This document shows positions 4,427-29,998 of a DNA stretch of 64,000 nucleotides, one piece after another. The position numbers and the translations under genes were made by a program. The notes beneath the pieces were generated by a model. That model was not told the origin of the DNA and ran no database searches. It saw only the letters and a program-made list of their open reading frames with translations. The DNA comes from Flavobacterium jumunjinense (GTDB lineage: Bacteria > Bacteroidota > Bacteroidia > Flavobacteriales > Flavobacteriaceae). The stretch's first letter is position 1. The number at the start of each line of letters is the position of its first letter. The stretch spans positions 496,001-560,000 of the forward strand of contig NZ_CP091285.1 in assembly GCF_021650975.2 (NCBI RefSeq). Direction: 5' to 3'.

Positions 4427-7400
4427 ATGAAAAAAATAGTATACATACTAACCCTTATCCCAATTCTTGCTTTAAGCCAAAGTCAAGATCAAAACTGGGT
4501 GAAAAGCAAAACTTACAAGCAAGCCACTACATCGGCTATAACCAGTCCCGATGTAAGCGTTGCTAACGTACAAGTGAGTTACTTTGACGGACTTGGAAGA
4601 CCCATTCAACAAATTGCACACCAACAATCCAACACAGGGAAAGACATAGTTACCCACATAGCCTATGATAACTTTGGAAGACAAATTGAAGAATATTTAC
4701 CCTTTCCAAATAAAACCCCTAGTTTAAACTATACCGATGGGGCAACAACCCTTACCGAATTAAGTACTTTTTATAGTTCCTACAACGGTGGAACAACCAA
4801 TCCTTTTAGTAAAAAAGAACTAGAACCTTCTCCTTTAGGACGTGTCTTCAAGCAAGCAGCTCCTGGAGACGCTTGGGCAATGGGAAGCGGTAAAGAAATT
4901 AAATTCGATTACCAAACCAATACAACAAACGACCAAGTTAGGCTTTTTTACGCTACAGCTACCTGGAATGCAACATTAGGATTATTTAACACATCTATTC
5001 ATGATAACGGTTATTATCAAGTTGATGAGTTATATAAGACCATTACTAAAGATGAAAATTGGACATCAGGTAAAAATAACACTACCGAAGAGTACAAAAA
5101 CAAAGAAGGTCAAGTGGTACTAAAACGCGCTTATAATAACGGAGATCCCCATGAAACCTACTACATCTACGACCAATTTGGTAATTTAACATATGTTGCT
5201 CCACCACTATCAGAACCAAGTCAATCCATCACTTGGTCCGATATAGATGGCTTATATTACCAATACAAATACGATTATCGTAACCGTTTAGTAGAAAAAA
5301 AATTACCCGGAAAACAATGGGAGTTTATTATCTATGACAAACTAGACCGACCTGTAGCTACAGGACCCGCTTTCACACCCTATGGAGGAGCAACTATTGG
5401 CTGGATGGTTACCGAATATGACACCTTTGGAAGAGTAACACAAACCGGTTGGAAACAAATGCCCGTTTCACAAAACTACAGAAAAAGCAATCAAAATAGC
5501 ATTACTGCGGGAGTAAATACTTTTGCTTTAAATGCCAATGACATATTAACCAAAAACTACTATGACAATTATGATTTCTTAACAGTACCACTTCCAACAC
5601 AAATTGAAGGACAAAACACGGTTGCAACAGCGAGTAAGTTAAAAGGACTACCAACAGGTTCTTGGGTAAAAGTGTTAGATGTAAACAATCCAAACGCTTC
5701 CGAAGTATCATATACTGTTTACGACGATCGTTACAGACCCATACGCAGTCATACCGACAACTATTTAGGTGGTTTTACCGAAGTAGATAGCAAACTCGAT
5801 TGGGCTGGAAAAACAGAATATACCATTACTAAGCATAAATATGACACCAACGGTTCAACAACAACAATTACCGATCGTTTCTCCTACTCTGCTCAAGACC
5901 GTTTAACGCTACACAAACAGCAAATTAACAGTCTGCCAGAGCAATTAATTAGCAAAAACACCTACGACGAACTAGGACAGTTGATTAGCAAAAACGTAGG
6001 CGGTGAAGATGTTAACGCAACTGCTAATGGACTACAAAAAGTAGATTACACTTACAACATTAGAGGATGGCTGAAAGCCATTAATGATGTAGACAATATA
6101 GGTACCGATTTATTTGCTTTTAAAATTAGCTATGAAAACCCAACTGATGCTTCGAAAGCCTTGTTCAACGGAAACATAGCCGAGACCTACTGGAAAACCA
6201 GTAGCGATAATAAACTAAGAAAATACGAATACACCTATGATGGTTTAAATCGATTGTTAGACGCGAACTATTCTAAAGTAGGAGAAGTAACAGCACTAAA
6301 CGATTATAAAGAAGCTTTAACTTACGATAAAAATGGAAACATTAAAACATTAAACCGATTTGGAACTGTAAATGACCCTGGATATAGTCCAAATATCGAT
6401 AACTTAGTATACACTTACGATACCAATATTAAAAACCAATTGGTAAAAGTAGACGACAGTTCCAATTCGCCACAAGGCTTTAAAGACGGAACCAATACCG
6501 ACAATGACTTTTTCTATGATGCCAATGGAAACATGACCAAAGACAACAACAAAGGCATTACTAACATACAATATAATCATCTTAATTTACCAACAAAAAT
6601 AGTTGTAGGAACCAATAGAATTGAATATATTTACAATGCAACAGGACAAAAAGTAAGCAAAATAGTGATCGAAAACACAACAACAACCAATACCAATTAT
6701 CTCGCAGGTGGATTTCAATACAAAAACAATGTATTGCAATTTTTTCCACAAGCAGAAGGCTATGTTAAAAACACAGCAGGTGCTTACAGTTACGTTTTCA
6801 ATTACACCGATCATTTAGGTAATGTTAGAGTGAGCTATTCGGACATTGACGGTAACGATAGTATTCAAGCCGATGAAATCTTAGAAGAAAGTCATTACTA
6901 CCCATTTGGACTGAAACATGAAGGGTATAATTCTAATAATCAACAACCTAATTATAACTATAAATACAACGGACAGGAGTGGCAAAGTGAATTAGGGCTT
7001 AATGTTACCGCTATGGATTATCGTCAATATGATCCTGCTATTGGTAGGTTTAATTCAATAGACAAACTTAGTGAATTCACACATTCAATAACTCCCTATC
7101 GTTTTGCTCTAAACAACCCTCTTTATTTTAATGACCCTTCTGGCTTAAGCGAGTTTATAGAAAACAACAAAATTTCAGATTACTACCGTGACAATAGAGG
7201 TAATGTTATTTTTGATCCAAATGTAAACAAAAACACTATCCTACCTAATGATTATGAATACATTGGACCTACATATACAGACCCTAATAATGGTGTAGTC
7301 TGGGATAATAATGGAGACCCTACTTATCCACTTAATGAAGTTGTTGTGACAGGGAAATCAAAAGCAAGTTCAGGTGCAGATTATCATCAAATATCATTGA

Positions 7401-7840
7401 TGTTCAGAAGTCTTTCTGGAAAATCTAAAATCATTCAAAAACCACTAGAGGCTGCTTATTTAAGCGGAACAAGATATGCTTCTCAATTATATTCAGGCCA
7501 TACTTCAAATGTTGTTTTTGAAAAGGTAATTTTAAGCAAAAAAATTTATGTTCCTTTAGGAAATTATAATACAGCAACTATAGGTAAATTATCCAAAACT
7601 CTCAAAATAACAGGAAGAACCTTAGGAGCTGTTGGAGTCGGTTTAGCTGTTTATGACATTGCAAATAATGGATTAAATATATCAAATGGATTAGATACAA
7701 CAATGGCAGTTTTAGCTCTTTCTCCAACTGGAGTTGGACAAGCTATTGCAGGAGTTTATTTTATATCTAATTTTGTTTTGGCTGTAACATTTGACACAAG
7801 CATAGGAGAAATCATTGAAAAACAAATAGATGGAAAATAG
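4427..7840 (+). CDS. Full-length secreted RHS toxin protein with tip CT1
   Basis: A 1,137-residue protein and the only complete RHS protein with its own signal peptide in the locus (MKKIVYILTLIPILALSQ). The N-terminal 100 or so residues match the DUF6443 domain (VSYFDGLGRPIQQIAHQQS). Many YD repeats follow, then the RHS-associated core (YTDHLGNVRVSYSD, YYPFGLKHEGYN, YNGQEWQSELGL, DYRQYDPAIGRFNSID) ending at about DPSGL near residue 905. The remaining 230 residues are the variable tip CT1. Its last 80 residues are glycine-rich and strongly hydrophobic, which suggests a membrane-acting toxin (inference). Imm1 overlaps its 3' end by 11 bases. From base 6882 onward the gene is duplicated at 16814. 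This is likely the expressed copy that orphan tips can recombine with. Confidence 0.88.
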   Translation: MKKIVYILTLIPILALSQSQDQNWVKSKTYKQATTSAITSPDVSVANVQVSYFDGLGRPIQQIAHQQSNTGKDIVTHIAYDNFGRQIEEYLPFPNKTPSLNYTDGATTLTELSTFYSSYNGGTTNPFSKKELEPSPLGRVFKQAAPGDAWAMGSGKEIKFDYQTNTTNDQVRLFYATATWNATLGLFNTSIHDNGYYQVDELYKTITKDENWTSGKNNTTEEYKNKEGQVVLKRAYNNGDPHETYYIYDQFGNLTYVAPPLSEPSQSITWSDIDGLYYQYKYDYRNRLVEKKLPGKQWEFIIYDKLDRPVATGPAFTPYGGATIGWMVTEYDTFGRVTQTGWKQMPVSQNYRKSNQNSITAGVNTFALNANDILTKNYYDNYDFLTVPLPTQIEGQNTVATASKLKGLPTGSWVKVLDVNNPNASEVSYTVYDDRYRPIRSHTDNYLGGFTEVDSKLDWAGKTEYTITKHKYDTNGSTTTITDRFSYSAQDRLTLHKQQINSLPEQLISKNTYDELGQLISKNVGGEDVNATANGLQKVDYTYNIRGWLKAINDVDNIGTDLFAFKISYENPTDASKALFNGNIAETYWKTSSDNKLRKYEYTYDGLNRLLDANYSKVGEVTALNDYKEALTYDKNGNIKTLNRFGTVNDPGYSPNIDNLVYTYDTNIKNQLVKVDDSSNSPQGFKDGTNTDNDFFYDANGNMTKDNNKGITNIQYNHLNLPTKIVVGTNRIEYIYNATGQKVSKIVIENTTTTNTNYLAGGFQYKNNVLQFFPQAEGYVKNTAGAYSYVFNYTDHLGNVRVSYSDIDGNDSIQADEILEESHYYPFGLKHEGYNSNNQQPNYNYKYNGQEWQSELGLNVTAMDYRQYDPAIGRFNSIDKLSEFTHSITPYRFALNNPLYFNDPSGLSEFIENNKISDYYRDNRGNVIFDPNVNKNTILPNDYEYIGPTYTDPNNGVVWDNNGDPTYPLNEVVVTGKSKASSGADYHQISLMFRSLSGKSKIIQKPLEAAYLSGTRYASQLYSGHTSNVVFEKVILSKKIYVPLGNYNTATIGKLSKTLKITGRTLGAVGVGLAVYDIANNGLNISNGLDTTMAVLALSPTGVGQAIAGVYFISNFVLAVTFDTSIGEIIEKQIDGK

Positions 7841-8255
7841 AAAAATATACTTCATAGATGTGGTTTACTACAACTGTTATTCTTTTTATAGGAGATATGA
7901 AAAAGACTTAAATGAATTTTCAGGTCAAGCTTTAACAGTAGCATGTTTATCTTTAAATGGCATTGCGGCTTTGATTTCAATACAATATTTTTTCAATTTA
8001 TTGCTTTTTGAAAATAAATGGTATACTTTATTTATCTCATTACCTATTTTACTTTTTATAGTTATTAGATATAACAAACACATAAACATAGTCGAGATTG
8101 AAGATGCTTTGCGTAGTAAAGAACAATACAAAATTAAAAGATTAAACTTTATTGCAGGTATTTATATTATAATTTCATTGTTCGGTTCAATTATTTTAGC
8201 AATTATTTTAGGAGAATTAAACAACCCACCACCTTTTTGGGAAACATGGAATTAA
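7830..8255 (+). CDS. Imm1: membrane immunity protein candidate for CT1
   Basis: A 141-residue protein whose ATG lies inside the last codons of the RHS gene, an 11-base overlap typical of toxin-immunity pairs. Three hydrophobic segments can be seen at about residues 35-60 (ALTVACLSLNGIAALISI), 65-80 (WYTLFISLPILLFIVI) and 108-128 (FIAGIYIIISLFGSIILAII), so it should sit in the inner membrane. I do not recognise a named family. A polytopic immunity protein fits a pore-forming or membrane-targeting toxin, which agrees with the hydrophobic end of CT1; that link is inference from position. Confidence 0.6.
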   Translation: MENRKIYFIDVVYYNCYSFYRRYEKDLNEFSGQALTVACLSLNGIAALISIQYFFNLLLFENKWYTLFISLPILLFIVIRYNKHINIVEIEDALRSKEQYKIKRLNFIAGIYIIISLFGSIILAIILGELNNPPPFWETWN

Positions 8256-9262: not shown

Positions 9263-9445
9263 ATGAAAACAAAACAACTCAAAGTCTATAGCAAATACAG
9301 CCCGAGAGCCTATAGAAAAAGCAAACACGTAGCCGAAATACGTTTAAACGGAATATGGTTAGAAGAACTAGGATTTATAGCAAATACCACCATGATAGTA
9401 CGCTATGAAAACGAAAAAATTATCCTAACACCACAAAAAGCATGA
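9263..9445 (+). CDS. SymE-like small protein (type I toxin family fold)
   Basis: A 60-residue protein. Its second half (IRLNGIWLEELGFIANTTM, then IVRYENEKIILTP) matches the SymE toxin pattern LxGxWLxxAGFxxGxxVxVxxxxGxIxLxP, a swapped-hairpin AbrB-like fold. E. coli SymE is an SOS-induced toxin held in check by an antisense RNA. Here the gene is first in an operon, its stop overlaps the start of the CHC2 gene by 4 bases (ATGA), and an XRE gene lies upstream. Toxin or DNA-binding accessory are both possible; only the fold assignment is well supported. Copy at 19195-19377. Confidence 0.7.
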   Translation: MKTKQLKVYSKYSPRAYRKSKHVAEIRLNGIWLEELGFIANTTMIVRYENEKIILTPQKA

Positions 9446-11862
9446 GCATAGAAGAAATAAAATCAAGGCTAACAATTGCGGAAGTACTACAACACTACAA
9501 TCTAAATCCAAACAAAAACAACATGCTCCGTTGTCCGTTTCATGAGGATAAAACAGCGAGTTTACAAGTAAGTTTTACCCAAAATAAATACAAATGCCAC
9601 GCTTGCGATAAAAAAGGCGATGTTATCCAATTTGTTCAAGACTATGAAAAGTTAACCAAACACGAAGCCATTTTAAAATGTGCCAGTTTAGCCAATGAGT
9701 CAATGAGCCAATTACAACCAATACCAACAACAACAGCAAAACATATAACTCACAACCTAGAACATATAACGTTCTTAGAAAAAATGTATTTAAGTTTTAG
9801 AAAAGCCATATTTAATAGTCCACCAGCTAAAGAATATTGCAGCAGCAGAAATTTAGACTTTGAAAAATTAGACATAGGTTTTAACTCTGGGCAGTTCCAT
9901 CATGGAGCAAGAAAAGATGAAAAGCTAATTAATACTTGTTTAGAATACGGATTGTTAAGCAAAGGCGGTACAAACTCAAGAACAGGCGGACAAGCCTACA
10001 AACCTTTTGGAAATCGCTCAATTGTCTTTCCATTAAAAAACAAAGAAAATCAAATCGTTAGCTTTTATTTTAGATCGATTGTCACAACTTCCCCTCCTTT
10101 GGAGGGGTGCCTAAAAGGCGGGGTGGTTAGTAAACATTTTTATCTGAAGAACCGACAAGGTTTATATCCTAATTATCCCAACCCAGACACAAAGAAATTA
10201 CTACTTACTGAAGCTATTATTGATACAGCTAGTTTATTACAAATCGATGCAATCGCAGCAAACTACTCACTATTAACCTGCTACGGAACTAACGGACTAA
10301 ACGAAGAAATCCTAAACGCTTTAAAACCCTTAAAACAGTTAGAAGAAATCATTTTCTTTTTTGATGGCGATAAAGCAGGAAACGAAGCCGTTACCAAATA
10401 CGCTGAAATACTGCGAGAGTTACACCCAAAAGCCAAAATAAGCCAAGTAGAAACACCACAAGAAGAAGACATCAATAGTTTATTACAAGGTCATGAAAGT
10501 GAAATACTAACACACTTAATCGAACAAAGAAAGGATGTCATTGCGACTACGAGAGAAACGAAGCAGGAAGCAATCTCTTCTTTTTCAATTGAAGACACGA
10601 GCCATTTTAATGGCGAACTGGCGAAGCAAACTATAAAAGTTGAACCAAAACAGGAAGTACAAAAAGCTACTCCAGAATCCAAAAAACAGATAACCAATAA
10701 CGGACAACCGATAACCTTTCTACAACAAGAAAACCTACTACAAGAATTGAACAAACTGATAGAACAAAGCGGAATAGTTGGAGAAGAAAACAGCAGACTA
10801 TTACTATTTATTATTGCCAGTTCCTACAAAACAAAACAACCCTTACACGCAATCGTACAAGGTTCAAGCGGAAGCGGAAAAACACATTTAATCAGTAAAA
10901 TAGCCGATATTATACCACAAGAAGACGTACTTCGATTTACAAGAATAACAGAAAGTTCTTTATACAATTGGGGCGAATATGAACTGGTAAACAAACTCTT
11001 AATTATAGAAGATTTAGACGGACTAAAAGAAGAAGCCATGTTTGCCATGCGAGAGTTAATCAGTAATCAAAGGTTATCCAGTTCGGTAAGTATCAAAGAC
11101 AAAAAAGGCAATATCAAATCGACAAAAAAAGAAGTAAAAGGCGTGTTTAGTAGTTTATCAGCCACCACAAAGGGAGAAATTTACGAAGACAATATGAGTA
11201 GAAGTTTTTTATTAGCAATCGATGAAAGCACAGCACAAAGCAGAAGAATTATTGACTATCAAAACAAAAAATATGCTGGAGAAATTGAACCAAAAGACCA
11301 GGAGAAAGCACGCAATAAACTACAACAAATAGTTAGAGCATTACAAAATTATGACGTCATAAACCCTTATGCAACTAAGCTAGAACTACCACAAGAAGTA
11401 CACAAAATAAGACGATTAAACGAAATGTTCCAAAGCATTGTGAGGCAAATCACCCTTTTAAATCAGAGAGATAGAGCACTTAAAAACGATAAATTAATCA
11501 CACAAATCGAAGATTTACAACAAGCTACAGAAGTCCTTTTTGAAAGCATCATTTTAAAAGTAGATGAACTCGACGGCTCTTTAAGACAGTTCTTTGAAAA
11601 ACTAAAAAAACACCTCAAAACACAAGAGAAAGACTTTACACAAAGAGAAATTAGACAAGCGTTTAATATGAGTAAAAGTCAATGTAGTCGTTTTATCATT
11701 CAATTAGTAGAACTAGAATATTTAATTACAATGAACAAAGGAAACTTAAGAAAAATATGTTACAAAGTAGACTATTGGGATGATTATCAAAAACTTAGAA
11801 TTAAAATAAAAGAAAAATTATTATTACAAATTGAGAAGCTACGACCAAACACAACAGAATAG
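9442..11862 (+). CDS. CHC2 zinc-finger / Toprim / P-loop ATPase replication protein
   Basis: An 806-residue protein. Residues 31-55 hold a DnaG-type CHC2 zinc finger (CPFH...CHAC). The Toprim domain covers about 250-330, with Glu257 in LLLTEAIID and the DGD triad at 308-310 (FFFDGDKAGNEA). After a linker, Walker A is GSSGSGKT (about 474-481) and Walker B is LLIIEDLD (about 520). A C-terminal helix-turn-helix-like segment ends the protein. By family this is a primase fused to an ATPase as found in mobile elements; it probably primes or helps replicate the island. Residues about 215-230 (TSPPLEGCLKGGVVSK) are the translation of an inserted palindromic repeat. The start overlaps the SymE-like gene, suggesting coupled translation. 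Confidence 0.82.
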   Translation: MSIEEIKSRLTIAEVLQHYNLNPNKNNMLRCPFHEDKTASLQVSFTQNKYKCHACDKKGDVIQFVQDYEKLTKHEAILKCASLANESMSQLQPIPTTTAKHITHNLEHITFLEKMYLSFRKAIFNSPPAKEYCSSRNLDFEKLDIGFNSGQFHHGARKDEKLINTCLEYGLLSKGGTNSRTGGQAYKPFGNRSIVFPLKNKENQIVSFYFRSIVTTSPPLEGCLKGGVVSKHFYLKNRQGLYPNYPNPDTKKLLLTEAIIDTASLLQIDAIAANYSLLTCYGTNGLNEEILNALKPLKQLEEIIFFFDGDKAGNEAVTKYAEILRELHPKAKISQVETPQEEDINSLLQGHESEILTHLIEQRKDVIATTRETKQEAISSFSIEDTSHFNGELAKQTIKVEPKQEVQKATPESKKQITNNGQPITFLQQENLLQELNKLIEQSGIVGEENSRLLLFIIASSYKTKQPLHAIVQGSSGSGKTHLISKIADIIPQEDVLRFTRITESSLYNWGEYELVNKLLIIEDLDGLKEEAMFAMRELISNQRLSSSVSIKDKKGNIKSTKKEVKGVFSSLSATTKGEIYEDNMSRSFLLAIDESTAQSRRIIDYQNKKYAGEIEPKDQEKARNKLQQIVRALQNYDVINPYATKLELPQEVHKIRRLNEMFQSIVRQITLLNQRDRALKNDKLITQIEDLQQATEVLFESIILKVDELDGSLRQFFEKLKKHLKTQEKDFTQREIRQAFNMSKSQCSRFIIQLVELEYLITMNKGNLRKICYKVDYWDDYQKLRIKIKEKLLLQIEKLRPNTTE
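10087..10130 (+). repeat. Palindromic repeat inserted in frame in the CHC2 gene
   Basis: One copy of the GC-rich palindromic element seen at 3478-4403 (CCCCTCC...GGAGGGG, then GCCTAAAAGGCGGGGTGG) lies inside the coding region and stays in frame. It adds about 15 residues between two conserved strands, FYFRSIV and HFYLKNRQGLYPN. Duplicated at 20019-20062. Confidence 0.88.
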
Positions 11863-12905: not shown

Positions 12906-13766
12906 ATGAATTTACACGATTATTTACACCAAAACTTACAACCATCGACAGTCAAAAACTACAATTATGAAATACAAAAATTTAGAAGCATCAATAAAAA
13001 TACAGAAAAATACAACTATCAAAAAATAATGGAATATGTAGCTCATTTACGAAAAAACTACAATCCGAAAAGTACAAACAGAGCTGTAGCAGCACTCAAA
13101 AAATACTATCAGTTTTTAATTGAAACAGGCAAACGAAAAGACAATCCAACCCTAAGCATAAAACTAAGAGACAGCAAAGAAGACCCAATACAATTACAAG
13201 ATTTATTCACAGAAAAAGAGCTCGAACTACTACTCCAACCTAGAAAAGAACGTTATCCTATTTTAGAAAAAAGAAACAAAATTATACTGAGTTTACTAGT
13301 CAATCAAGCTTTAAAACCTGGAGAAATACAACAACTCAAAACAAACGATATTGATCTAGAAAAAGCACAAATACACATTGCAAAAACAGGATTAACCAAT
13401 AGTAGAATTTTACCACTCAAAGCCGAGCAAATCTTTTTACTACATCAATACCTCACTAAAGACAGAAATGAGCTAAAAACACTTAGAAACGATAAAAACG
13501 CTTTACTATTAGGTAAATTAGGCACACCCATAACAACAGATGACATTCATTATTTAGTGACAACGTATCAAAATCAGTTCAATAAAAAGTTAACAAGCAT
13601 CACCATTAGACAAAGTGTAATCACCAATTTATTAGCCAAAAACAACAACTTAAGAATAGTACAAGAATTTGCAGGACACAAACATTTAGACACTACAGAA
13701 AAATACAAACAATCCGGAATAAAAGCCCTGCAAAATGCAATACAAATTCATCATCCAATGAAATAA
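12906..13766 (+). CDS. Tyrosine recombinase-like Int2 (degenerate active site)
   Basis: A 286-residue partner of Int1 with the same architecture but altered catalysis. The first Arg is replaced by Lys137 (QALKPGE), and the HxxR motif reads I-T-I-R with Arg235 kept and His lost. His258 (AGHKH) and the nucleophile position Tyr267 (TEKYKQ) remain. It may be a structural or regulatory half of a heteromeric recombinase, as XerC/XerD subunits take turns in catalysis. Loss of function by decay is less likely because the frame is intact and the duplicate at 22838 is identical, although the duplication looks recent. Confidence 0.8.
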   Translation: MNLHDYLHQNLQPSTVKNYNYEIQKFRSINKNTEKYNYQKIMEYVAHLRKNYNPKSTNRAVAALKKYYQFLIETGKRKDNPTLSIKLRDSKEDPIQLQDLFTEKELELLLQPRKERYPILEKRNKIILSLLVNQALKPGEIQQLKTNDIDLEKAQIHIAKTGLTNSRILPLKAEQIFLLHQYLTKDRNELKTLRNDKNALLLGKLGTPITTDDIHYLVTTYQNQFNKKLTSITIRQSVITNLLAKNNNLRIVQEFAGHKHLDTTEKYKQSGIKALQNAIQIHHPMK

Positions 13767-13782
13767 ATAAAAAACTACTACT

Positions 13783-13838
13783 CCGTATCAAAGCCGTATT
13801 AAAGCCGTATCAAAGTCATATCAAAGCCATAGATAAAG
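13783..13838 (+). repeat. 11-bp iteron-like direct repeats
   Basis: Four head-to-tail 11-mers with exact period: CCGTATCAAAG (13783), CCGTATTAAAG (13794), CCGTATCAAAG (13805), TCATATCAAAG (13816). A degenerate fifth follows, CCATAGATAAAG (13827). They start 17 bases after the recombinase pair. Such iterons commonly bind replication initiators or recombinase arm domains; which of these applies is unknown. Duplicated at 23715-23770. Confidence 0.75.
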
Positions 13839-13904
13839 TATAACCCTCATTTAACTTTTAGTCTTTAATCACAAAAAGCAATAAAACAAAAGGCAATCAA
13901 GCGG

Positions 13905-14400: not shown

Positions 14401-14404
14401 TAAA

Positions 14405-14484
14405 GCTCTCTTTTTTTATACGATTGCTACCACCTTTTTCTTTCAATTGAAAATAAAATTGGCAATCGTATAAAAAAAGAGAGC
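14405..14484. repeat. Perfect 23-bp inverted repeat around a CAATTG palindrome
   Basis: Arms at 14405-14427 and 14462-14484 are exact reverse complements (GCTCTC, seven T, ATACGATTGC and its mirror). The 34-base middle contains the palindrome TTTCAATTGAAA. A second hairpin with the same TTTTCAATTGAAAATAAAA word (ATCTTTTT / AAAAAGAT) lies at about 14740-14768, just before the next RHS tip. No gene lies between 14400 and 14779. Candidate binding site or end of the island. Duplicated at 24337-24416. Confidence 0.8.
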
Positions 14485-21794: not shown

Positions 21795-21982
21795 TGAGAC
21801 AATTTGGGACAATCTTGGGACAATTAAAATTAACACAACTTACTAATTACTAGTCACTAACAACTAATTACTAGTTTATTGTCTCAATTCCCAAAAAGTC
21901 ACAACCTAAAACCTAACGAAGTGGTTCGTGAATACCATAGGTAAACAATAAAAACTAATGAACAAACAATCATAGGTATACT

Positions 21983-22834
21983 ATGGAAGACATTATTTTC
22001 AACTTTAGAAAAGAATTACAAAACTTAGGCTATAGCAAAAATGCAGTAAATGAATATCCGAAATTTGTAAAAAAACTACTCCATTACAGCAAAGAAAATC
22101 CACAAAAAATAAAACCAAAACACATAGCAAACTATCATCGCTATTTACAAGAAAAACCAAAAACAAGAGGCATTGGAAAACTCAGTGAAGCCTACATAAA
22201 AAGTCAACTACTCGCTATAAAACTCTTTTTTGAATACTTAGAAAGAACACAACAAATCAATAAAAATCCGTTCCTATTAAAAGTAAAAACACCACAAAAT
22301 AAAACAAGAGCAACGCTCACTGTAGAAGAGATAAAAATCCTTTACGCTTCTTGTCAAAACCAACTAGAAACCACCATTATACACTTGTGTTATGGTTGTG
22401 GACTCAGAAGAACCGAAGTACAAAATTTGAATATAAAAGACATTCATTTTTCTAAAAAATTACTCTTTATAAGAAAAGGAAAAGGCAAGAAAAGAAGAGT
22501 TATTCCATTAACAAAAAGCATCACCAAAGACTTAAAAAAATACTATGTAGAAAGTTTTCAATACAGAAAAAAAGACCAAGATAGTTTTTTAATTACTCCA
22601 GATGGAAACCGATTATTAGGCAATAGTATTTACAATCAATTTAAGAAAATAAGCAAAAGAAATCTGCTTTTAAAACAACAAAAAATCTGTTTACACTCGC
22701 TTCGACATTCCATTGCAACCCATTTATTAGAAAACGATATGAGCGTAGAAATGGTGCGGGATTTTTTAGGACATGACCAACTAAAGACAACTCAAATTTA
22801 TACTAAAATAAACCACCTAAAACTAAAACAATGA
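21983..22834 (+). CDS. Tyrosine recombinase Int1, second copy
   Basis: Identical to 12051-12902 with all catalytic residues kept. Confidence 0.9.
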   Translation: MEDIIFNFRKELQNLGYSKNAVNEYPKFVKKLLHYSKENPQKIKPKHIANYHRYLQEKPKTRGIGKLSEAYIKSQLLAIKLFFEYLERTQQINKNPFLLKVKTPQNKTRATLTVEEIKILYASCQNQLETTIIHLCYGCGLRRTEVQNLNIKDIHFSKKLLFIRKGKGKKRRVIPLTKSITKDLKKYYVESFQYRKKDQDSFLITPDGNRLLGNSIYNQFKKISKRNLLLKQQKICLHSLRHSIATHLLENDMSVEMVRDFLGHDQLKTTQIYTKINHLKLKQ

Positions 22835-22837
22835 CAC

Positions 22838-23698
22838 ATGAATTTACACGATTATTTACACCAAAACTTACAACCATCGACAGTCAAAAACTACAATTAT
22901 GAAATACAAAAATTTAGAAGCATCAATAAAAATACAGAAAAATACAACTATCAAAAAATAATGGAATATGTAGCTCATTTACGAAAAAACTACAATCCGA
23001 AAAGTACAAACAGAGCTGTAGCAGCACTCAAAAAATACTATCAGTTTTTAATTGAAACAGGCAAACGAAAAGACAATCCAACCCTAAGCATAAAACTAAG
23101 AGACAGCAAAGAAGACCCAATACAATTACAAGATTTATTCACAGAAAAAGAGCTCGAACTACTACTCCAACCTAGAAAAGAACGTTATCCTATTTTAGAA
23201 AAAAGAAACAAAATTATACTGAGTTTACTAGTCAATCAAGCTTTAAAACCTGGAGAAATACAACAACTCAAAACAAACGATATTGATCTAGAAAAAGCAC
23301 AAATACACATTGCAAAAACAGGATTAACCAATAGTAGAATTTTACCACTCAAAGCCGAGCAAATCTTTTTACTACATCAATACCTCACTAAAGACAGAAA
23401 TGAGCTAAAAACACTTAGAAACGATAAAAACGCTTTACTATTAGGTAAATTAGGCACACCCATAACAACAGATGACATTCATTATTTAGTGACAACGTAT
23501 CAAAATCAGTTCAATAAAAAGTTAACAAGCATCACCATTAGACAAAGTGTAATCACCAATTTATTAGCCAAAAACAACAACTTAAGAATAGTACAAGAAT
23601 TTGCAGGACACAAACATTTAGACACTACAGAAAAATACAAACAATCCGGAATAAAAGCCCTGCAAAATGCAATACAAATTCATCATCCAATGAAATAA
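22838..23698 (+). CDS. Tyrosine recombinase-like Int2, second copy
   Basis: Identical to 12906-13766 with the same Lys and Ile replacements in the active site. Confidence 0.8.
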   Translation: MNLHDYLHQNLQPSTVKNYNYEIQKFRSINKNTEKYNYQKIMEYVAHLRKNYNPKSTNRAVAALKKYYQFLIETGKRKDNPTLSIKLRDSKEDPIQLQDLFTEKELELLLQPRKERYPILEKRNKIILSLLVNQALKPGEIQQLKTNDIDLEKAQIHIAKTGLTNSRILPLKAEQIFLLHQYLTKDRNELKTLRNDKNALLLGKLGTPITTDDIHYLVTTYQNQFNKKLTSITIRQSVITNLLAKNNNLRIVQEFAGHKHLDTTEKYKQSGIKALQNAIQIHHPMK

Positions 23699-24711
23699 AT
23701 AAAAAACTACTACTCCGTATCAAAGCCGTATTAAAGCCGTATCAAAGTCATATCAAAGCCATAGATAAAGTATAACCCTCATTTAACTTTTAGTCTTTAA
23801 TCACAAAAAGCAATAAAACAAAAGGCAATCAAGCGGTCTCCCTTCGGTCGTTCACTTTGCTTCGCTCGGCTGTTCCAGTCGTTCGTGCCTCTCTCCATTC
23901 CACAGACCACTTGCCACCATCAAAAAAGCCTCTTGACTTCAAGAAGCTTTTTTGTTGTTGGCTGCGCTCCTCGTCTTCGCACGTTCACTACCCTACGCTC
24001 GTCGGGGCTACTACATCAAAAAAGACCACAAAACTCCGACAAGCTACGTTTTGCCGTCTTTCTCGCTGTCGCCCCTTGTGTTTTGGGCGGTTGCTCTCTG
24101 CTACAGCCATCCACTCGGCAAGGTGTGGCAGAGCCACTAGTTTGATTATTGTTTTCCTCGTGTCCGTTACACGCTCACAGCCCTTCACAAAACTGCACTC
24201 CGTTACGTTTTGTTCACGGTCTGTGGTGGCTTTTGCATTGCCGCAACACCGACCCGACGCTCCTCAAAAAAACTCCACTTCGTTACGTCTTTTTTGCGGT
24301 GCTTGGGGGTGTTAGCACAAAAACCGATTAAGTAAAGCTCTCTTTTTTTATACGATTGCTACCACCTTTTTCTTTCAATTGAAAATAAAATTGGCAATCG
24401 TATAAAAAAAGAGAGCGAACCGTTTTAACATAGCAGCCAACTAACGGGAAACGCAGTAAAATCAGTATTTACCTGAAATTGTAACCTGGAGAAATAAAAG
24501 TAATAAATTAAAAAAGTGAGACCGTAAAGCCTCACTTTTAATCTCCTTGCAAGAGTAAGTAATATTAATTTATAAAATTCTTAAATGAGAAGAATCAAAA
24601 CAAATCTAAACATATTTATTGAAATCACAAACACGAATACAAAGCGAATAACTCAAAAATAAAGCAACATCTTTTTTTTTCAATTGAAAATAAAAAGATT
24701 ATTTTTAAGCA
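23699..24711. other. Second copy of iterons, GC-rich hairpin block and inverted repeat
   Basis: A gene-free stretch identical to 13767-14779: iterons at 23715-23770, GC-rich hairpins at 23837-24332, the 23-bp inverted repeat at 24337-24416, a terminator hairpin at 24512-24539 and the CAATTG hairpin at about 24672-24700. Confidence 0.8.
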
Positions 24712-25686
24712 ATGGGATGTCTAAAATTACATACTTACACGCATTTACATATTGCTCACACGAGCAATACGGAACACTCGCGCGAGAAAAAAAGCGATGC
24801 AGGACGATACCAGTATAAATACAACGGTAAAGAACTGCAAACGGAGCTTGGGCTTAACATGTACGACTACGGTGCTAGGAATTACGACCCCGCTTTAGGT
24901 AGATGGATGAATATAGATCCGTTGGCGGAGAAAACCCAAGAGGTATATAGTTATGTGTGGAACAACCCAATTATGAATATTGACCCTGATGGTAGAAGTG
25001 GTGAAAGTACACACACAGATAAAGACGGAAACGTATTAGCTGTATTCAATGATGGCGACAATAGTGTCTACAAACATGATACCGCTGAATCAAAAGACGA
25101 TGTTGAAAAATTGAGAAATGAAAAATCAAACAATTCTGGAGGTGGAACCAAAATGGGAGAAACTGAACATTGGGATGAATTTGTAAGCCCTGAAACTGGT
25201 AAAACTATGACAAATTACAGGATTCAATTTGGTAAATCATTTGACCCTATTATAGGCAAATTAAATTTTGAATCAAAAAAAATGGATTTGAAAGAAATAG
25301 CATTAAATTCTAGAGGAGGAGGAATATTTGATTTAAAAAAAGACTTTAAAAATGTTGGAGCATTATTAGAAGGAAAATATGCTACTTCTAGGTCTGCTGG
25401 TAATTTTTTAGCTGGATTAAATGCAGAAGGAGGAAGGATGTTCGGAGTAGGCGTGAATTTCGAGACTTTTCAAAAGCTTGCTGGCGCATTACATATAGAA
25501 GAAAGCAATGGGAACAAGCTATCAAGTAGTCAAATGAAAGAAATAGTTGTAAAAGGGACTTATAATAGCTCAAATATTTCTAATTTTGCAGCTCCAACAT
25601 GGGGTGAAGTTAATTATCAATATAGAATGAGTAGAGCTGGTTGGTTTAAAGCAGAAAATTCAGGTGTTATGACTCTTAATTATTAA
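24712..25686 (+). CDS. Orphan RHS tip CT3 with MGCLKL start, copy 1
   Basis: A 324-residue protein. The first 42 residues are the same MGCLKL lead and core as at 14780; it then switches to NMYDYGARNYDPALGRWMNI and the junction DPDGRSG. CT3 (about 230 residues) contains GALLEGKYATSRSAGNFLAG and ends with FAAPTWGEVNYQYRMSRAGW. That end is a form I associate with Bacteroidota RHS tips. A faint resemblance to the Ntox44 (bacterial toxin 44) group is possible but unproven. No signal peptide. Followed by a lipoprotein immunity gene. Confidence 0.7.
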   Translation: MGCLKLHTYTHLHIAHTSNTEHSREKKSDAGRYQYKYNGKELQTELGLNMYDYGARNYDPALGRWMNIDPLAEKTQEVYSYVWNNPIMNIDPDGRSGESTHTDKDGNVLAVFNDGDNSVYKHDTAESKDDVEKLRNEKSNNSGGGTKMGETEHWDEFVSPETGKTMTNYRIQFGKSFDPIIGKLNFESKKMDLKEIALNSRGGGIFDLKKDFKNVGALLEGKYATSRSAGNFLAGLNAEGGRMFGVGVNFETFQKLAGALHIEESNGNKLSSSQMKEIVVKGTYNSSNISNFAAPTWGEVNYQYRMSRAGWFKAENSGVMTLNY

Positions 25687-25691
25687 TTAAC

Positions 25692-26117
25692 ATGAAAAAG
25701 ACAATATTATTTTCATTAGCTATATTGATAATTTCTTGTAAAATTAACCGCAACGAAATATCAGAACCTTTAAACAAGGAAAAAGTTGTCAAATTATCTT
25801 TTGACAATAGAGAATTCTTTTTTCTAAAAACAGATATTCATGGAATTGCAGGAAATCACCAACAAATAACCCTATCAATTAAAGATGATAAAGTCTACAA
25901 TAAAGGAACAGATTTTATATTCTATTCGCCTGAGGTTTATTACAAAAAAACTAAAGATTCGCTGATAATATATGCCCCAGAATGTTGTTTTTTAGAACCA
26001 GTTGACAAAAAGTATAAAACAATTATCATGATAACTGGCCTAAAAAAAGCAAGTGATATTGATAATTATGAGAAAAATTACAAACAATATGGCCTTGAAA
26101 GACTCAGTGTTTATTAA
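25692..26117 (+). CDS. Imm3: lipoprotein immunity candidate for CT3, copy 1
   Basis: A 141-residue protein with a lipoprotein signal (MKKTILFSLAILIISC, Cys at residue 16). It starts 5 bases after CT3. The mature part is small and beta-rich with no family I recognise. A membrane-anchored, periplasm-facing immunity protein implies that CT3 acts or is met outside the cytoplasm (inference). Identical copy at 27571. Confidence 0.6.
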   Translation: MKKTILFSLAILIISCKINRNEISEPLNKEKVVKLSFDNREFFFLKTDIHGIAGNHQQITLSIKDDKVYNKGTDFIFYSPEVYYKKTKDSLIIYAPECCFLEPVDKKYKTIIMITGLKKASDIDNYEKNYKQYGLERLSVY

Positions 26118-26118: not shown

Positions 26119-26275
26119 CCCCACGCTGGCGCAAGCATCTTGCTTGTGCCCACAACGTAAATAAAAACAAAAACCACTCTGTAAAAAAGGAGTGGTTTCC
26201 CCACGCTGGCGCAAGCATCTTGCTTGTGCCCACAACGTAAAAAAGCAAAACCACTCTGTAAAAAGGAGTGGTTTT
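26119..26275 (+). repeat. Two family B repeats with terminators
   Basis: Family B copies at 26119-26160 and 26199-26240 each precede an AAACCACTC / GAGTGGTTT hairpin (26169-26197 and 26246-26275). The tandem arrangement suggests repeated insertion or recombination at this element. Confidence 0.82.
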
Positions 26276-26375
26276 GTTGTTTTATAAAGTGGCTACGCTT
26301 TTATTTTTAAAAACAAATCAATACTGTATCAAAAATTATTATAAAATCAACGTTTTTTCTATATTTACAATGCAA
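26276..26375 (+). repeat. Shared leader before start-less RHS tips
   Basis: A roughly 95-base sequence (GTGGCTACGC, then AT-rich, ending ATATTTACAATGCAA) precedes each of the three start-less RHS fragments (16370-16460, 26276-26375, 28155-28254). It carries an in-frame stop 15 bases before the RHS homology starts and no ribosome site with an ATG, so it is a junction rather than a gene start. Confidence 0.7.
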
Positions 26376-27565
26376 CAGGACAAAAAGTAAGCAAAATAGT
26401 GATCGAAAACACAACAACAACCAATACCAATTATCTCGCAGGTGGATTTCAATACAAAAACAATGTATTGCAATTTTTTCCACAAGCAGAAGGCTATGTT
26501 AAAAACACATCAGGTGCTTACAGTTACGTTTTCAATTACACCGATCATTTAGGTAATGTTAGAGTGAGCTATTCGGACATTGACGGTAACGATAGTATTC
26601 AAGCCGATGAAATCTTAGAAGAAAGTCATTACTACCCATTTGGACTGAAACATGAAGGGTATAATTCTAATAATCAACAACCAAATTATAACTATAAATA
26701 CAACGGAAAAGAACTGCAAACTGAACTAGGATTGAATATGTATGACTTCGGTGCACGAAATTACGACCCCGCTTTAGGTAGATGGATGAATATAGATCCG
26801 TTGGCGGAGAAAACCCAAGAGGTATATAGTTATGTGTGGAACAACCCAATTATGAATATTGACCCTGATGGTAGAAGTGGTGAAAGTACACACACAGATA
26901 AAGACGGAAACGTATTAGCTGTATTCAATGATGGCGACAATAGTGTCTACAAACATGATACCGCTGAATCAAAAGACGATGTTGAAAAATTGAGAAATGA
27001 AAAATCAAACAATTCTGGAGGTGGAACCAAAATGGGAGAAACTGAACATTGGGATGAATTTGTAAGCCCTGAAACTGGTAAAACTATGACAAATTACAGG
27101 ATTCAATTTGGTAAATCATTTGACCCTATTATAGGCAAATTAAATTTTGAATCAAAAAAAATGGATTTGAAAGAAATAGCATTAAATTCTAGAGGAGGAG
27201 GAATATTTGATTTAAAAAAAGACTTTAAAAATGTTGGAGCATTATTAGAAGGAAAATATGCTACTTCTAGGTCTGCTGGTAATTTTTTAGCTGGATTAAA
27301 TGCAGAAGGAGGAAGGATGTTCGGAGTAGGCGTGAATTTCGAGACTTTTCAAAAGCTTGCTGGCGCATTACATATAGAAGAAAGCAATGGGAACAAGCTA
27401 TCAAGTAGTCAAATGAAAGAAATAGTTGTAAAAGGGACTTATAATAGCTCAAATATTTCTAATTTTGCAGCTCCAACATGGGGTGAAGTTAATTATCAAT
27501 ATAGAATGAGTAGAGCTGGTTGGTTTAAAGCAGAAAATTCAGGTGTTATGACTCTTAATTATTAA
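26360..27565 (+). CDS. Orphan RHS tip CT3, copy 2 (start-less)
   Basis: The frame begins without ATG at 26360 (first possible start GTG at 26399). About 130 residues of RHS core are nearly identical to the full-length gene (YLAGGFQYKNNVLQFFPQAE, YTDHLGNVRVSYSD, YYPFGLKHEGYN), followed by the same CT3 as at 24712. Only one residue (Ser for Ala in KNTSGAYS) stands out in the upstream core. The long stretch of core identity would give recombination with the expressed gene at 4427 a large target. Confidence 0.72.
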   Translation, partial: YIYNATGQKVSKIVIENTTTTNTNYLAGGFQYKNNVLQFFPQAEGYVKNTSGAYSYVFNYTDHLGNVRVSYSDIDGNDSIQADEILEESHYYPFGLKHEGYNSNNQQPNYNYKYNGKELQTELGLNMYDFGARNYDPALGRWMNIDPLAEKTQEVYSYVWNNPIMNIDPDGRSGESTHTDKDGNVLAVFNDGDNSVYKHDTAESKDDVEKLRNEKSNNSGGGTKMGETEHWDEFVSPETGKTMTNYRIQFGKSFDPIIGKLNFESKKMDLKEIALNSRGGGIFDLKKDFKNVGALLEGKYATSRSAGNFLAGLNAEGGRMFGVGVNFETFQKLAGALHIEESNGNKLSSSQMKEIVVKGTYNSSNISNFAAPTWGEVNYQYRMSRAGWFKAENSGVMTLNY

Positions 27566-28254
27566 TTAACATGAAAAAGACAATATTATTTTCATTAGCT
27601 ATATTGATAATTTCTTGTAAAATTAACCGCAACGAAATATCAGAACCTTTAAACAAGGAAAAAGTTGTCAAATTATCTTTTGACAATAGAGAATTCTTTT
27701 TTCTAAAAACAGATATTCATGGAATTGCAGGAAATCACCAACAAATAACCCTATCAATTAAAGATGATAAAGTCTACAATAAAGGAACAGATTTTATATT
27801 CTATTCGCCTGAGGTTTATTACAAAAAAACTAAAGATTCGCTGATAATATATGCCCCAGAATGTTGTTTTTTAGAACCAGTTGACAAAAAGTATAAAACA
27901 ATTATCATGATAACTGGCCTAAAAAAAGCAAGTGATATTGATAATTATGAGAAAAATTACAAACAATATGGCCTTGAAAGACTCAGTGTTTATTAATCCC
28001 CACGCTGGCGCAAGCATCTTGCTTGTGCCCACAACGTAAATAAAAACAAAAACCACTCTGTAAAAAAGGAGTGGTTTCCCCACGCTGGCGCAAGCATCTT
28101 GCTTGTGCCCACAACGTAAAAAAGCAAAACCACTCTGTAAAAAGGAGTGGTTTTGTTGTTTTATAAAGTGGCTACGCTTTTATTTTTAAAAACAAATCAA
28201 TACTGTATCAAAAATTATTATAAAATCAACGTTTTTTCTATATTTACAATGCAA
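26759..28254 (+). repeat. 1.5-kb CT3/Imm3 duplication, copy 2
   Basis: Second copy of 24880-26375, including family B repeats at 27998-28039 and 28078-28119 and their terminators (28048-28076 and 28125-28154). Confidence 0.92.
27571..27996 (+). CDS. Imm3 lipoprotein, copy 2
   Basis: Identical to 25692-26117, with the lipobox Cys at residue 16, starting 5 bases after the second CT3. Confidence 0.6.
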   Translation: MKKTILFSLAILIISCKINRNEISEPLNKEKVVKLSFDNREFFFLKTDIHGIAGNHQQITLSIKDDKVYNKGTDFIFYSPEVYYKKTKDSLIIYAPECCFLEPVDKKYKTIIMITGLKKASDIDNYEKNYKQYGLERLSVY

Positions 28255-29546
28255 TAGGAACAAAACTAGAAAAAAGAGTGACATCAACACCAGAAGCTAC
28301 ATGGGACAATCCTTTTCCTACACCTGTAACCAATAAGACTACTTATTTGGCTGGCTTCCAGTATAAAGACAACTGCTTAGAATTTTTTCCACACGCAGAA
28401 GGTTATGTAAAATACCAATATAGCGAAAACAGCTATAGTTATGTCTTTAACTATACAGACCACTTAGGAAATGTTAGAGTAAGCTATTCGGACATTGACA
28501 AAAATGGTCTTTTAGGTAGTGAACACATACAGGAATGTCCTAAACAAATAGGGCCCACACCTCCTCCATGTCAAGACTTATACGTTTCTGCTATTCTAGA
28601 AGAAAGTCATTACTACCCATTTGGACTGAAACATGAAGGGTATAATTCTAATAATCAACAATCTAATTATAACTATAAATACAACGGTAAAGAACTGCAA
28701 ACAGAACTTGGACTTAACATGTATGACTACGGGGCTAGGAATTATGACCCAGCAATTGGTAGATGGATGAATATTGATCCATTAGCAGAGAAATATATAG
28801 ATTACAGTCCTTATAACTATGTATTAAATAATCCTGTAAAATTTGTTGACCCTGATGGAATGCAAGTAGACAACATTTATGGTTTAAACACAGAATCTGG
28901 AGACATAACACTTCTAGAAACAAATGATGATAAGACAGATACTTTAATTGATACTTCTAACCAAGAAGTCATATCAGACGATGTTGACAAAGGTTTATTA
29001 TATGATGGACAAAATATTATGGAAGACGGACTCCAAACAAGAAATTACAAAGGAGGAATAAAATTAATCTACGATATTTCTTTACATACACATGACGAGA
29101 TTGGCGGAATGATTTACAAAAACAGTAAAGGAGAAAAATACCTAAACGTATTACCTTACACACATAGCAAGATAGAAGTAGATGAAAACGGAGTAAGCAT
29201 GATAGCTGGTTTCTCTCAAAAATTAGATTCTCCTTTTTTTACTTCTAAGGACAAAACTTTTTCGGGAACAATTTCAATTATGTTTCATACACATCCAGGA
29301 CACCCCGACTATCCAAAATTAGGATACGCATTTCCGTCTCCTGGTGATTACTCAATAGCCTTAGATAACCACGACCTTATAGGTTCTAAAAATGGTCATT
29401 CAGATATTTATAAAAAAATTAAATATTTTGTTTTTGGCGCCAAAACAGAGACAAAAGGAGGAAAAACTTCAAATGTAGGATCATATAGATATGGACTAGG
29501 AAGAGAATTACATTCAAAAAATTTTAACGAACTAATGTCAAATTAA
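28239..29546 (+). CDS. Orphan RHS tip CT4 with JAB-like metalloprotease domain
   Basis: The frame starts without ATG at 28239 (GTG possible at 28278). RHS core (TTYLAGFQYKDNCLEFFPHA, YTDHLGNVRVSYSD, YNGKELQTELGLNMYD, YDPAIGRWMNIDPLAEK) runs to DPDGMQ. The tip of about 230 residues contains IMFHTHPGHPD and FPSPGDYS. This matches the JAMM/JAB signature HxHP...SxxD, with an upstream Glu (for example in DEIGGMIYKNS) as the possible catalytic acid. JAB domains cleave isopeptide or peptide bonds and occur in polymorphic toxins. No signal peptide; silent or donor cassette is likely. Confidence 0.75.
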   Translation, partial: YIYNAIGTKLEKRVTSTPEATWDNPFPTPVTNKTTYLAGFQYKDNCLEFFPHAEGYVKYQYSENSYSYVFNYTDHLGNVRVSYSDIDKNGLLGSEHIQECPKQIGPTPPPCQDLYVSAILEESHYYPFGLKHEGYNSNNQQSNYNYKYNGKELQTELGLNMYDYGARNYDPAIGRWMNIDPLAEKYIDYSPYNYVLNNPVKFVDPDGMQVDNIYGLNTESGDITLLETNDDKTDTLIDTSNQEVISDDVDKGLLYDGQNIMEDGLQTRNYKGGIKLIYDISLHTHDEIGGMIYKNSKGEKYLNVLPYTHSKIEVDENGVSMIAGFSQKLDSPFFTSKDKTFSGTISIMFHTHPGHPDYPKLGYAFPSPGDYSIALDNHDLIGSKNGHSDIYKKIKYFVFGAKTETKGGKTSNVGSYRYGLGRELHSKNFNELMSN

Positions 29547-29551
29547 TTTCC

Positions 29552-29998
29552 ATGAAAAAAAACCTCTTTTTTTTAATTATTTGTGTTTTAAATTCATGTA
29601 GTCCTACTGAAAAAATTAAAACAGAAAACAAATCGTGCATTATTTTAGCAGAAAAAACTATTAATCATCTTTTCCAAAAAGAAAGTTTAAGTAAAATTAA
29701 ATTTAGCTCCGAAGTTTTTTTTCATATTAATTTAAAAAAACTAAATTCAAACTATTATCTAACAAAAATTTCATTAAATGGACTAAAGCCTAAAACATAT
29801 TCATATAAAATTAATTGTCAAAATTTTAAAACTTTTATTTACAACAGTAATAATTTAAACACTGATTACGATCCTGCTTTTTTTGTTCCAGATTCAAGAA
29901 GTTGGTTATTGTTACTACATGTAAAAAACAATGAAATAATATATGTAAAAAAAATAGAAAACTTTGAGTTAACTGATAATAATGATTTCGAATTATAA
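29552..29998 (+). CDS. Imm4: lipoprotein immunity candidate for CT4
   Basis: A 148-residue protein with the lipoprotein signal MKKNLFFLIICVLNSC, starting 5 bases after CT4. The mature protein is Lys-rich and beta-like; no family recognised. Assigned by position only. Confidence 0.55.
   Translation: MKKNLFFLIICVLNSCSPTEKIKTENKSCIILAEKTINHLFQKESLSKIKFSSEVFFHINLKKLNSNYYLTKISLNGLKPKTYSYKINCQNFKTFIYNSNNLNTDYDPAFFVPDSRSWLLLLHVKNNEIIYVKKIENFELTDNNDFEL

Follow-up and report, generated by a model that had tools for sequence, protein, structure and literature searches.

A probable site-specific integrative element that carries an RHS toxin tip and uses the shell-to-tip codons as its attachment site in Flavobacterium jumunjinense

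Introduction

The acquisition of new tips by RHS toxins, and the pile-up of shell-less tips behind them, are usually ascribed to homologous recombination between the conserved RHS cores. Here we describe a window of 64,000 nt (C1:496001-560000 of the 4.68-Mb genome of Flavobacterium jumunjinense) in which a full RHS gene is followed by a chain of shell-less tips with immunity-size open reading frames (ORFs), and in which a unit of 7,923 bp is present twice. The unit joins a tip (CT1) and its immunity ORF to a primase and two tyrosine recombinases (REC1 and REC2). We propose that it is, very probably, a site-specific integrative element that uses the RHS shell-to-tip codons Y-K-Y-N-G-K/Q-E for attachment and carries its own tip and immunity gene at its left end.

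Several described systems share parts of this arrangement (our statements about cited papers, here and below, concern parts of their text). In Salmonella, rearrangement of Rhs by core recombination can re-express an orphan tip (PMC3967940), and in the type VI secretion system loci of Vibrio cholerae, tip breakpoints occur without specific sites (PMC5361080). In bee-gut bacteria, integrase-like genes lie near Rhs genes and were suggested to aid transfer and capture (PMC5727410), and a 2012 survey noted XerC/D genes beside polyimmunity loci and suggested accumulation there (PMC3482391). As in our window, the loci with orphan tips or C-terminal displacement (PMC3967940, PMC5727410) consist of a complete toxin gene and then shell-less tips with immunity genes. 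In contrast to the core-core recombination described for them, our locus has fixed codon boundaries, dedicated recombinases, and a tip-carrying unit. In the text concerned, the core recombination of Salmonella and Vibrio is without fixed ends, unlike the element described here, and no unit or site is defined for the bee-gut Rhs genes.

Results

Three identical copies of a tip-carrying unit

The tip chain and the repeated unit are real, and chance cannot explain them. An 8-kb repeat (6882-14935 versus 16814-24867 of the window) is 99.88% identical, and the unit proper within it (6959-14881 and 16891-24813) has 0 mismatches over 7,923 bp. This bears out the duplication claimed in an earlier reading of the window (the sequence-only reading), and a third copy lies 553 kb away at locus B (L017+L018), where a further full RHS gene carries the same CT1 tip and the third copy runs into yet another tip. 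When the alignment extends from one TATAAATACAACGG to the following one, all three pairwise comparisons of the copies (A1 and A2 in the window, and B) show 0 mismatches over 7,923 bp. The identical unit spans the tip, the immunity ORF, and the machinery, in the order CT1 tip, immunity ORF, XRE regulator, SymE-like ORF, primase/AAA, two tyrosine recombinases, and right end. The recombinases and primase had been read earlier as a separate island embedded among the tips. They do not look like a stand-alone piece that aids homologous recombination; they belong with CT1 and its immunity ORF to a single unit that ends at fixed RHS codons.

The three copies adjoin three different old tips at the two loci. 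Counting from the first base of the right core, identity extends for 23 bases between A1 and A2 and for 11 bases between B and either of them, and of the 150 bases to the right of the core, 65 differ between A1 and A2 and 42 between A1 and B. On the left, each copy is flanked by RHS core, which is identical for 16 bases (A1/A2 and A2/B) or 77 bases (A1/B). Shell and CT1 form a single ORF at both loci, and in-frame shell-tip ORFs are likewise found in two related genomes of the genus (G136, 21831-27092, and G057, 19507-24696). The chain in the window has these features:

4427..6958, + strand: RHS gene, conserved shell/core up to the attachment codons (DUF6443, PF20041, 1.3e-43; RHS_repeat, 1.2e-05)
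6959..6972, + strand: left junction (attL-like) TATAAATACAACGG, codons Y-K-Y-N-G, start of copy 1 of the 7,923-bp unit
6959..7840, + strand: tip CT1 (element payload), in frame with the RHS core (no Pfam family in the tip part)
7830..8255, + strand: immunity-size ORF for CT1, 141 aa
8753..9154, - strand: XRE-type regulator (HTH_3, 2.4e-15)
9263..9445, + strand: SymE-family small ORF, 60 aa (PF08845, 4.3e-08)
9442..11862, + strand: CHC2/Toprim primase with an AAA-type ATPase part, 806 aa
12051..12902, + strand: REC1, tyrosine recombinase (Phage_integrase) with the full catalytic set
12906..13766, + strand: REC2, partner recombinase (Phage_integrase) without Arg I and His II
13767..14881, + strand: right end, about 1.1 kb, taken as non-coding, terminating in AAAAAAAGCGATGCAGGACGATACCAG
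14405-14484: long hairpin within the right end
14882..14895, + strand: right junction (attR-like) TATAAATACAACGG, where the RHS core restarts
14780..15802, + strand: leader and displaced tip CT2 (DUF4329, PF14220, 8.4e-12)
15726..16271, + strand: immunity-size ORF for CT2 (as listed; the actual start may be further in)
16287..16890, + strand: partial RHS core of an orphan module ahead of copy 2
16891..24813, + strand: copy 2 of the unit (CT1, immunity ORF, XRE, SymE-like, primase, REC1, REC2, right end), identical to 6959-14881
16945-17772: CT1 copy, the tip ORF in copy 2, followed by its immunity-size ORF
24712..25686, + strand: leader and displaced tip CT3 (junction at 24814)
25692..26117, + strand: immunity-size ORF for CT3
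26199..27996, + strand: element-free orphan module with partial core, a CT3 copy (26399-27565), and an immunity-size ORF
28078..29998, + strand: element-free orphan module with partial core, CT4 (28278-29546), and an immunity-size ORF
30175..30630, + strand: additional small immunity-size ORF that closes the chain

The full RHS ORF (4427-7840) encodes 1137 aa. It had been taken for the sole full RHS gene and the only one with a signal peptide. Its shell and its signal-peptide-like start (judged by eye) are indeed there, but locus B has a second full RHS gene, and the upstream gene at 59-3475, which has an RHS repeat and no tip, also starts like a signal peptide. The five further tips with immunity genes are all present as claimed, except that CT2 and the first CT3 start in a leader rather than in ordinary core: their ORFs open with MGCLKLHTYTHL... 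(the MGCLKL leader, which begins at 14780 for the window unit), and RHS core appears only from YKYNG onward. Copy 2 interrupts a partial-core orphan module at the Y-K-Y-N-G codons, and its right end leads into CT3; the ORF of the interrupted module (16287-16890) stops at 16816, in a frame that differs from that of the CT1 copy. The downstream tips that adjoin the unit are best read as displaced older tips. Pfam detects no known domain in CT1, CT3, or CT4 of the window, and CT2 alone is a DUF4329 tip. A 152-aa ORF inside the right end (13925-14383) has no Pfam match either.

Relatives across the genus, family, and phylum

Within the genus, a relative of the primase (E <= 1e-20) was found in 18 of 199 genomes, and stretches were taken from all 17 others. 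Eight genomes (F. jumunjinense included) have 17 right-side junctions, 15 of which come after a recombinase pair; the remaining two (G136 at 106688 and G021 at 10823) come after other tip units. (One of the junctions in G136 was detected by BLAST alone.) The pattern finds no junction in the remaining genus stretches because the contigs are short or the tip differs. G136 has one full RHS gene and then five recombinase-bearing elements, and G057 has one full RHS gene and then two, with tips and immunity-size ORFs between them.

A scan of the phylum with a REC2 alignment gave 136 pattern matches and 127 relatives, and 75 loci were taken from the best 80 of these 127. They come from Flavobacterium, Chryseobacterium, Chitinophaga, Cyclobacterium, Belliella, Fulvivirga, Brumimicrobium, Saprospiraceae, and others (one, L197, is titled as a Rhizobium metagenome-assembled genome, which is possibly a binning error). 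REC2 has 1,821 relatives in the protein collection at E <= 1e-40. RHS junctions were sought with a core model made from 29 junction sequences of the window and the genus genomes, some of which recur among the 75 loci. Where at least 2.5 kb of sequence follows REC2, 43 of 49 loci have a same-strand junction (41 begin at model position <=3); where at least 9 kb follows it, 32 of 35 loci do (31 begin at model position <=3). An opposite-strand junction was found in 1/49 and 0/35, respectively. As controls, we used 20 tyrosine recombinases from the genus genomes, which were hand-picked and are mostly Xer-like genes from genomes that possess RHS junctions; none of the 20 (18 with a full 10 kb) had an RHS junction. 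There was also no RHS junction in four neighbourhoods of other recombinases in the F. jumunjinense genome, and the rest of the window has two core matches, which come from another RHS remnant.

The family set was an independent test. REC2 was found at E <= 1e-50 in 14 of 299 genomes (F. jumunjinense included), and stretches were taken from all 13 others, covering 23 of the 26 listed matches (G442 C14, G377 C122, and G352 C21 were left out). Of the REC2 genes with at least 2.5 kb downstream, 18/22 have a same-strand junction ahead of the next recombinase, and five recombinase pairs are stacked in G273 C54. The sequence-only reading had linked the recombinase/primase island to RHS and had named island copies at random non-RHS sites in relatives as the sign of a mere passenger. 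Given the association with RHS in 32/35 loci and in 18/22 genes of the family set, versus 0/20 for the controls, the link holds and we reject a passenger island.

One plasmid shows the arrangement in an independent annotation. In Aureibacter plasmid pAT2 (PLSDB/RefSeq), the annotated order is RHS, hypothetical, HTH, CHC2, two recombinases, and RHS tip. The set then repeats and is followed by a polymorphic toxin type 47 tip (Ntox47, 5.4e-13).

Ends of the element, tandem copies, and self-closing contigs

A same-strand core match lies downstream in 48 of the 75 loci, and 46 of the 48 are usable, with a model start <=3. At 45 of these 46 right ends, a stop codon lies within 45 codons upstream in frame, in place of RHS core; the 46th (L175) has YYAFG-like core upstream. 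Compact elements have a loose right-end consensus around TTGTGCAGG before the junction (16/27, by our own motif list), and the window has GATGCAGG. Leaders similar to MGCLKL are found at 4 of the 46 right ends (L143, L147, L161, and L175). In the compact class, such a leader could provide a translation start for the displaced tip, and not all displaced tips need therefore be silent. A promoter in the right end that would drive the displaced tip was considered and rejected (2 promoter-like sites, versus a shuffle mean of 2.4). No Rfam family scored above its threshold in window 4000-31000.

Tandem copies that are at least 98% identical are found in L136, L147, L165, L173, and G170. In L165, the sole two differences in ~7.87 kb lie just left of TATGGGTTTAATGG. 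Tandem units in three family genomes have 0 mismatches (7,300/7,300 bases in G488, 7,000/7,000 in G218, and 7,600/7,600 in G220). Their boundary lies ~20-25 codons earlier, at N-Y-Y-P-F-G (AACTACTATCCNTTTGG), and therefore there are at least two target positions, both just ahead of the tip. The left breakpoint is sharper in L165 and G218 than in the F. jumunjinense genome. Overall, a short common core at both unit ends and a fixed attachment site were found, with L136 excepted. We also searched the genus for an empty site with CT2; among the matches listed, those in other genomes cover at most residues 1-184 of 306, and mostly only the junction part.

Some contigs look like single units of the element. 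Two of 32 whole-contig loci have a long terminal overlap. L149 has an overlap of 141 bp (equal to k in the contig name) and a closed length of 7,865 bp. It contains an AHH toxin, Imm11, XRE, primase, and REC2, with REC1 spanning the contig ends, one junction, and no other RHS core. L164 has an overlap of 299 bp and starts exactly at the junction. In L134, which is NODE_21 of Flavobacterium ajazii, and likewise in L139 and L172, the contig start is the tip junction and the contig end is the right end.

The right ends of the window unit (13880-14400) and of a Chitinophaga element (L151:10963-11217) give similarly biased translated strings, as judged by eye. This hints that both share a hairpin region that is non-coding and could be, for example, an origin of transfer or replication.

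A conserved recombinase pair with a degenerate partner

The catalytic residues of REC1 (R142, K167, H238, R241, H264, and Y273) are kept in 29 of 29 aligned sequences; we take them to be Arg I, Lys, His II, Arg II, His III, and Tyr, respectively (the residue roles in both recombinases are our assumption, positioned via alignment to XerD). REC1 thus has the full catalytic set of a tyrosine-recombinase integrative element. In REC2, Arg I is found in 1/28 and His II in 0/28 sequences, while Arg II (R235), His III (H258), and Tyr (Y267) are found in 28/28. With a REC1 profile, XerC-like, XerA, and XerD chains score above IntI4. The conservation of the pair, with a degenerate REC2, suggests that REC2 is structural or that the two form an asymmetric complex. 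More speculatively, the pair might make a single strand exchange that is then resolved by the primase. A recombinase pair with one conservedly degenerate partner, beside the primase of the element, poses an enzymological question.

Payload and cargo

An immunity-size ORF follows the left-end tip in 31 of 34 cases (raw count). AHH nuclease and Imm11 are the payload pair of both L151 and L149. Among ten tips from relatives we found AHH, Peptidase_M91 (one above and one below the cut-off), and Toxin-JAB1, and among ten neighbours we found Imm11. Recombinase DNA is at least 75% identical (76.0-93.0%) in 25 pairs among 48 elements, with the copies of F. jumunjinense excluded. In 24 of these 25 pairs the tips have no similarity; in the other, they are 44% identical over 136 aa.

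Larger relatives carry further genes. Elements of G136 encode a relaxase and MobC. Seven of ten cargo proteins were matched by PADLOC (HEC-01A, HEC-01B, PDC-M71A, PDC-M71B, PDC-M29A, Cas9, and PDC-M58A), and Pfam gives zeta toxin, SocA, and no match for the other three. G136 also has an OLD-type ATPase beside a UvrD helicase, a pair that seems to resemble Gabija. In G057 C1 (L071:12712-17076), a Cas9 gene lies just behind REC2 of an element of this class; by eye, its neighbours resemble Cas1/Cas2, with a repeat array before the junction. An IS1-like transposase ORF ends 98 bp before the tip junction in both G136 (G136a 135931-136590; DDE_Tnp_IS1, 2.6e-23) and G057 (59214-59891; stitched coordinates), and is possibly a second kind of tip-linked unit.

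Other observations in the window and at locus B

A separate RHS gene remnant with tips and immunity-size ORFs lies outside the chain (37794-42607). A 51-nt repeat (CCAGCTCTTCGAGG...) lies 3' of several immunity ORFs (8254-8755, 18186-18687, 29976-30051, and 30617-30742). It has 21 copies in the genome with <=1 mismatch (15 forward and 6 reverse, with 0 for a reversed-pattern control), some of them on the 11-kb contig C2. An integron-like cassette array built on these repeats was rejected, as the unit does not end at them. A GGGGTG-type repeat around the DUF559 gene (3666-4085; repeat region 3483-4408) recurs inside the primase ORF (10085-10137).

The final orphan module of locus B continues as a fusion with the 3' portion of an rsmI-like gene (named by eye; L017:1250-1927 and L018:10937-11488). 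An intact rsmI-like copy lies at the left of the locus, and 676 bp are shared at 94% identity. A protein with a DILWEKSYGG motif precedes the RHS pair at L017:2731-4362 and at G136a 16694-18355 (by eye); the protein in L017 has an apparent type IX secretion sorting tail, also by eye.

Discussion

A proposed mechanism

The ends of the unit, the identity of its copies, the target codons, the in-frame fusion, the linkage of tip and machinery, the recurrence in Bacteroidota, and the self-closing contigs are all visible at the sequence level. We infer that the element integrates and excises, is transferred, and switches expression, that the downstream tips are silent, and that the tips are toxic. 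We propose that REC1, with its degenerate partner REC2, recombines the attachment site of a circular form with the RHS codons. The RHS core would be fused in frame to the tip of the element, and the immunity gene would come in the same step, with the machinery behind it. The former tip would be shifted behind the right end and become an orphan. Repeated integration at the same codons would stack elements and tips (last in, first expressed), and excision would restore the previous tip. The primase/AAA protein probably serves to copy the circle after excision or to resolve an intermediate of recombination.

A bolder picture, which we offer tentatively and would not expect to hold in every part, is of warhead-swapping elements across the phylum. 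These would be autonomous circles with one toxin, its antidote, and often phage-defence genes that enter an RHS gene at the shell-tip codons. Integration would at once re-arm the recipient and immunize it against the kin of the donor, and the old warheads would form a last-in-first-out stack that is reloaded by excision. The half-degenerate pair would make one strand exchange, and the primase would complete the process by replication.

A dedicated element that joins a tip and its antidote in frame at a fixed site would be a testable mechanism for rapid weapon turnover. It bears on how a bacterium can gain a new toxin tip and survive the change, and it links competition by toxins with mobile elements and, in the larger relatives, with phage defence (HEC-01, PDC-M71, and Cas9).

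Alternative explanations

First, ordinary homologous recombination of the enterobacterial kind, from one RHS core to another, could have gathered the tips, with the island copied along as a passenger. Such recombination can re-express orphan tips in Salmonella (PMC3967940), and the Vibrio cholerae breakpoints without a specific site (PMC5361080) would fit it too. In principle, the three copies in F. jumunjinense could have spread via recombination between the flanking cores. This explanation predicts variable breakpoints with core homology on both sides, which is what we see only for the element-free orphans at 26199-27996 and 28078-29998: they hold partial cores and no element, and for them homologous recombination, which the sequence-only reading had named as the established route of tip swapping in enterobacterial RHS, is the best reading. 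For the modules that bear the element we consider it improbable. In 46 loci the right end breaks at the same codons, and 45 of these loci lack upstream core; the island is linked to RHS in many genera; and the unit encodes recombinases, and its identical copies diverge no more than 23 bases from the start of the attachment core.

A second possibility is a phage satellite or plasmid-derived element that happens to attach at RHS. The XRE regulator, primase, and recombinases of the unit resemble, we presume, the modules of satellites. Also, larger relatives have a relaxase and MobC, and one relative is on a megaplasmid. This seems very unlikely because no match was found among 50,697 phage records (E <= 1e-20), the element has no match among viral contigs, and only 1 of 72,556 plasmid records matches. 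Nor does any ORF of the unit have a Pfam match to a phage structural protein, and a satellite or plasmid origin leaves the tip and immunity-size ORF at the left end unexplained.

Finally, the least probable explanation is that the element inserts downstream of the immunity gene without carrying a tip and appears linked to tips as RHS loci are full of them: recombinases up to 93% identical do lie beside unrelated tips (24/25 pairs), but the three identical units of F. jumunjinense contain tip and immunity ORF, the tandem units of L165, G488, G218, and G220 begin at or just before the tip, the self-closing L149 has tip, immunity, machinery, and one junction, and the contigs L134, L139, and L172 run from tip junction to right end.

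Several observations weigh against a site-specific, tip-carrying element, or limit it. Three of the 35 loci have no RHS junction within 10 kb downstream (L201, L144, and L145). In L201, the same contig bears a full RHS gene upstream and, 13.3 kb downstream, a same-strand junction; L144 and L145 stay exceptions to the RHS linkage. In the family set there are four failures (G273 C54 at 36599, G284, G469, and G352), and the recombinases of G352 are in a different order. In-frame RHS core lies upstream of the left junction in just 14/35 loci, and at the remaining left junctions there is a contig edge or the right end of an adjacent element, or the flank could not be assigned. In the F. jumunjinense genome itself, the left breakpoint is not sharp because the left flank is RHS core in all copies. 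The tandem copies of L136 show differences as far as 35 bases into the tip side, which places some breakpoints outside the core codons. Related elements do not share tips, which means that tips are also swapped between elements by another process. None of the ORFs of the window unit is a relaxase, and the compact class is without one. Perfect tandem arrays could also yield self-closing contigs, and excision, the circle, and the switch are predicted here from sequence alone.

Comparison with known systems

The rAID clusters of Bacteroidales (PMC12247911) resemble our locus in that they are in Bacteroidota and combine a tyrosine recombinase, immunity genes, and conserved intergenic motifs. As described in the text concerned, a rAID cluster consists of arrayed orphan immunity genes and a single predicted recombinase, whereas the window unit is not such an array: it pairs tips with immunity ORFs and has two recombinases along with a primase and an attachment site in RHS. 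The polyimmunity loci with XerC/D genes (PMC3482391) also place a recombinase by immunity genes, with no toxin-tip unit or attachment site in the part of the survey that treats them.

Tn554 and recombinase-in-trio (RIT) elements (PMC3414803) likewise have two or three adjacent tyrosine recombinases on one element. In contrast to TnpA-TnpB-TnpC or three recombinases, the REC pair is flanked by the primase and the right end, with no third recombinase or TnpC-like neighbour, and the element differs from those described there in its primase, its toxin payload, and its target. The bcpAIOB megacircle of Burkholderia (PMC6350997) is also a toxin-immunity system on a mobile circle, but the element described there is ~210 kb, is bounded by insertion sequences, and moves the whole system, whereas here a tip moves.

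Shufflons also use site-specific recombination to alter the C-terminus of a surface protein, and they do so by inverting segments within one locus; here, autonomous elements would integrate and stack. Integrative and mobilizable elements are alike in their integration by a tyrosine recombinase, and the larger G136 relatives also resemble them in their relaxase, MobC, and defence-type cargo. They differ in that here the target is the core-tip codons of a toxin, the payload replaces the 3' end of the gene with one of different function, the recombinases are a pair with one degenerate member, and the window element has no relaxase.

We found no description of a tip-carrying unit that uses core-tip codons in the open-licence PMC literature, the scope of our search (which did not extend to subscription papers and most preprints), of which the papers cited were represented by parts of their text. 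Within that literature, the combination of attachment site, payload, and effect appears to be without counterpart, while its parts, Xer-type recombinases and orphan tips, are known. If all tyrosine-recombinase elements are counted as one kind, then the element of F. jumunjinense is a variant of that kind.

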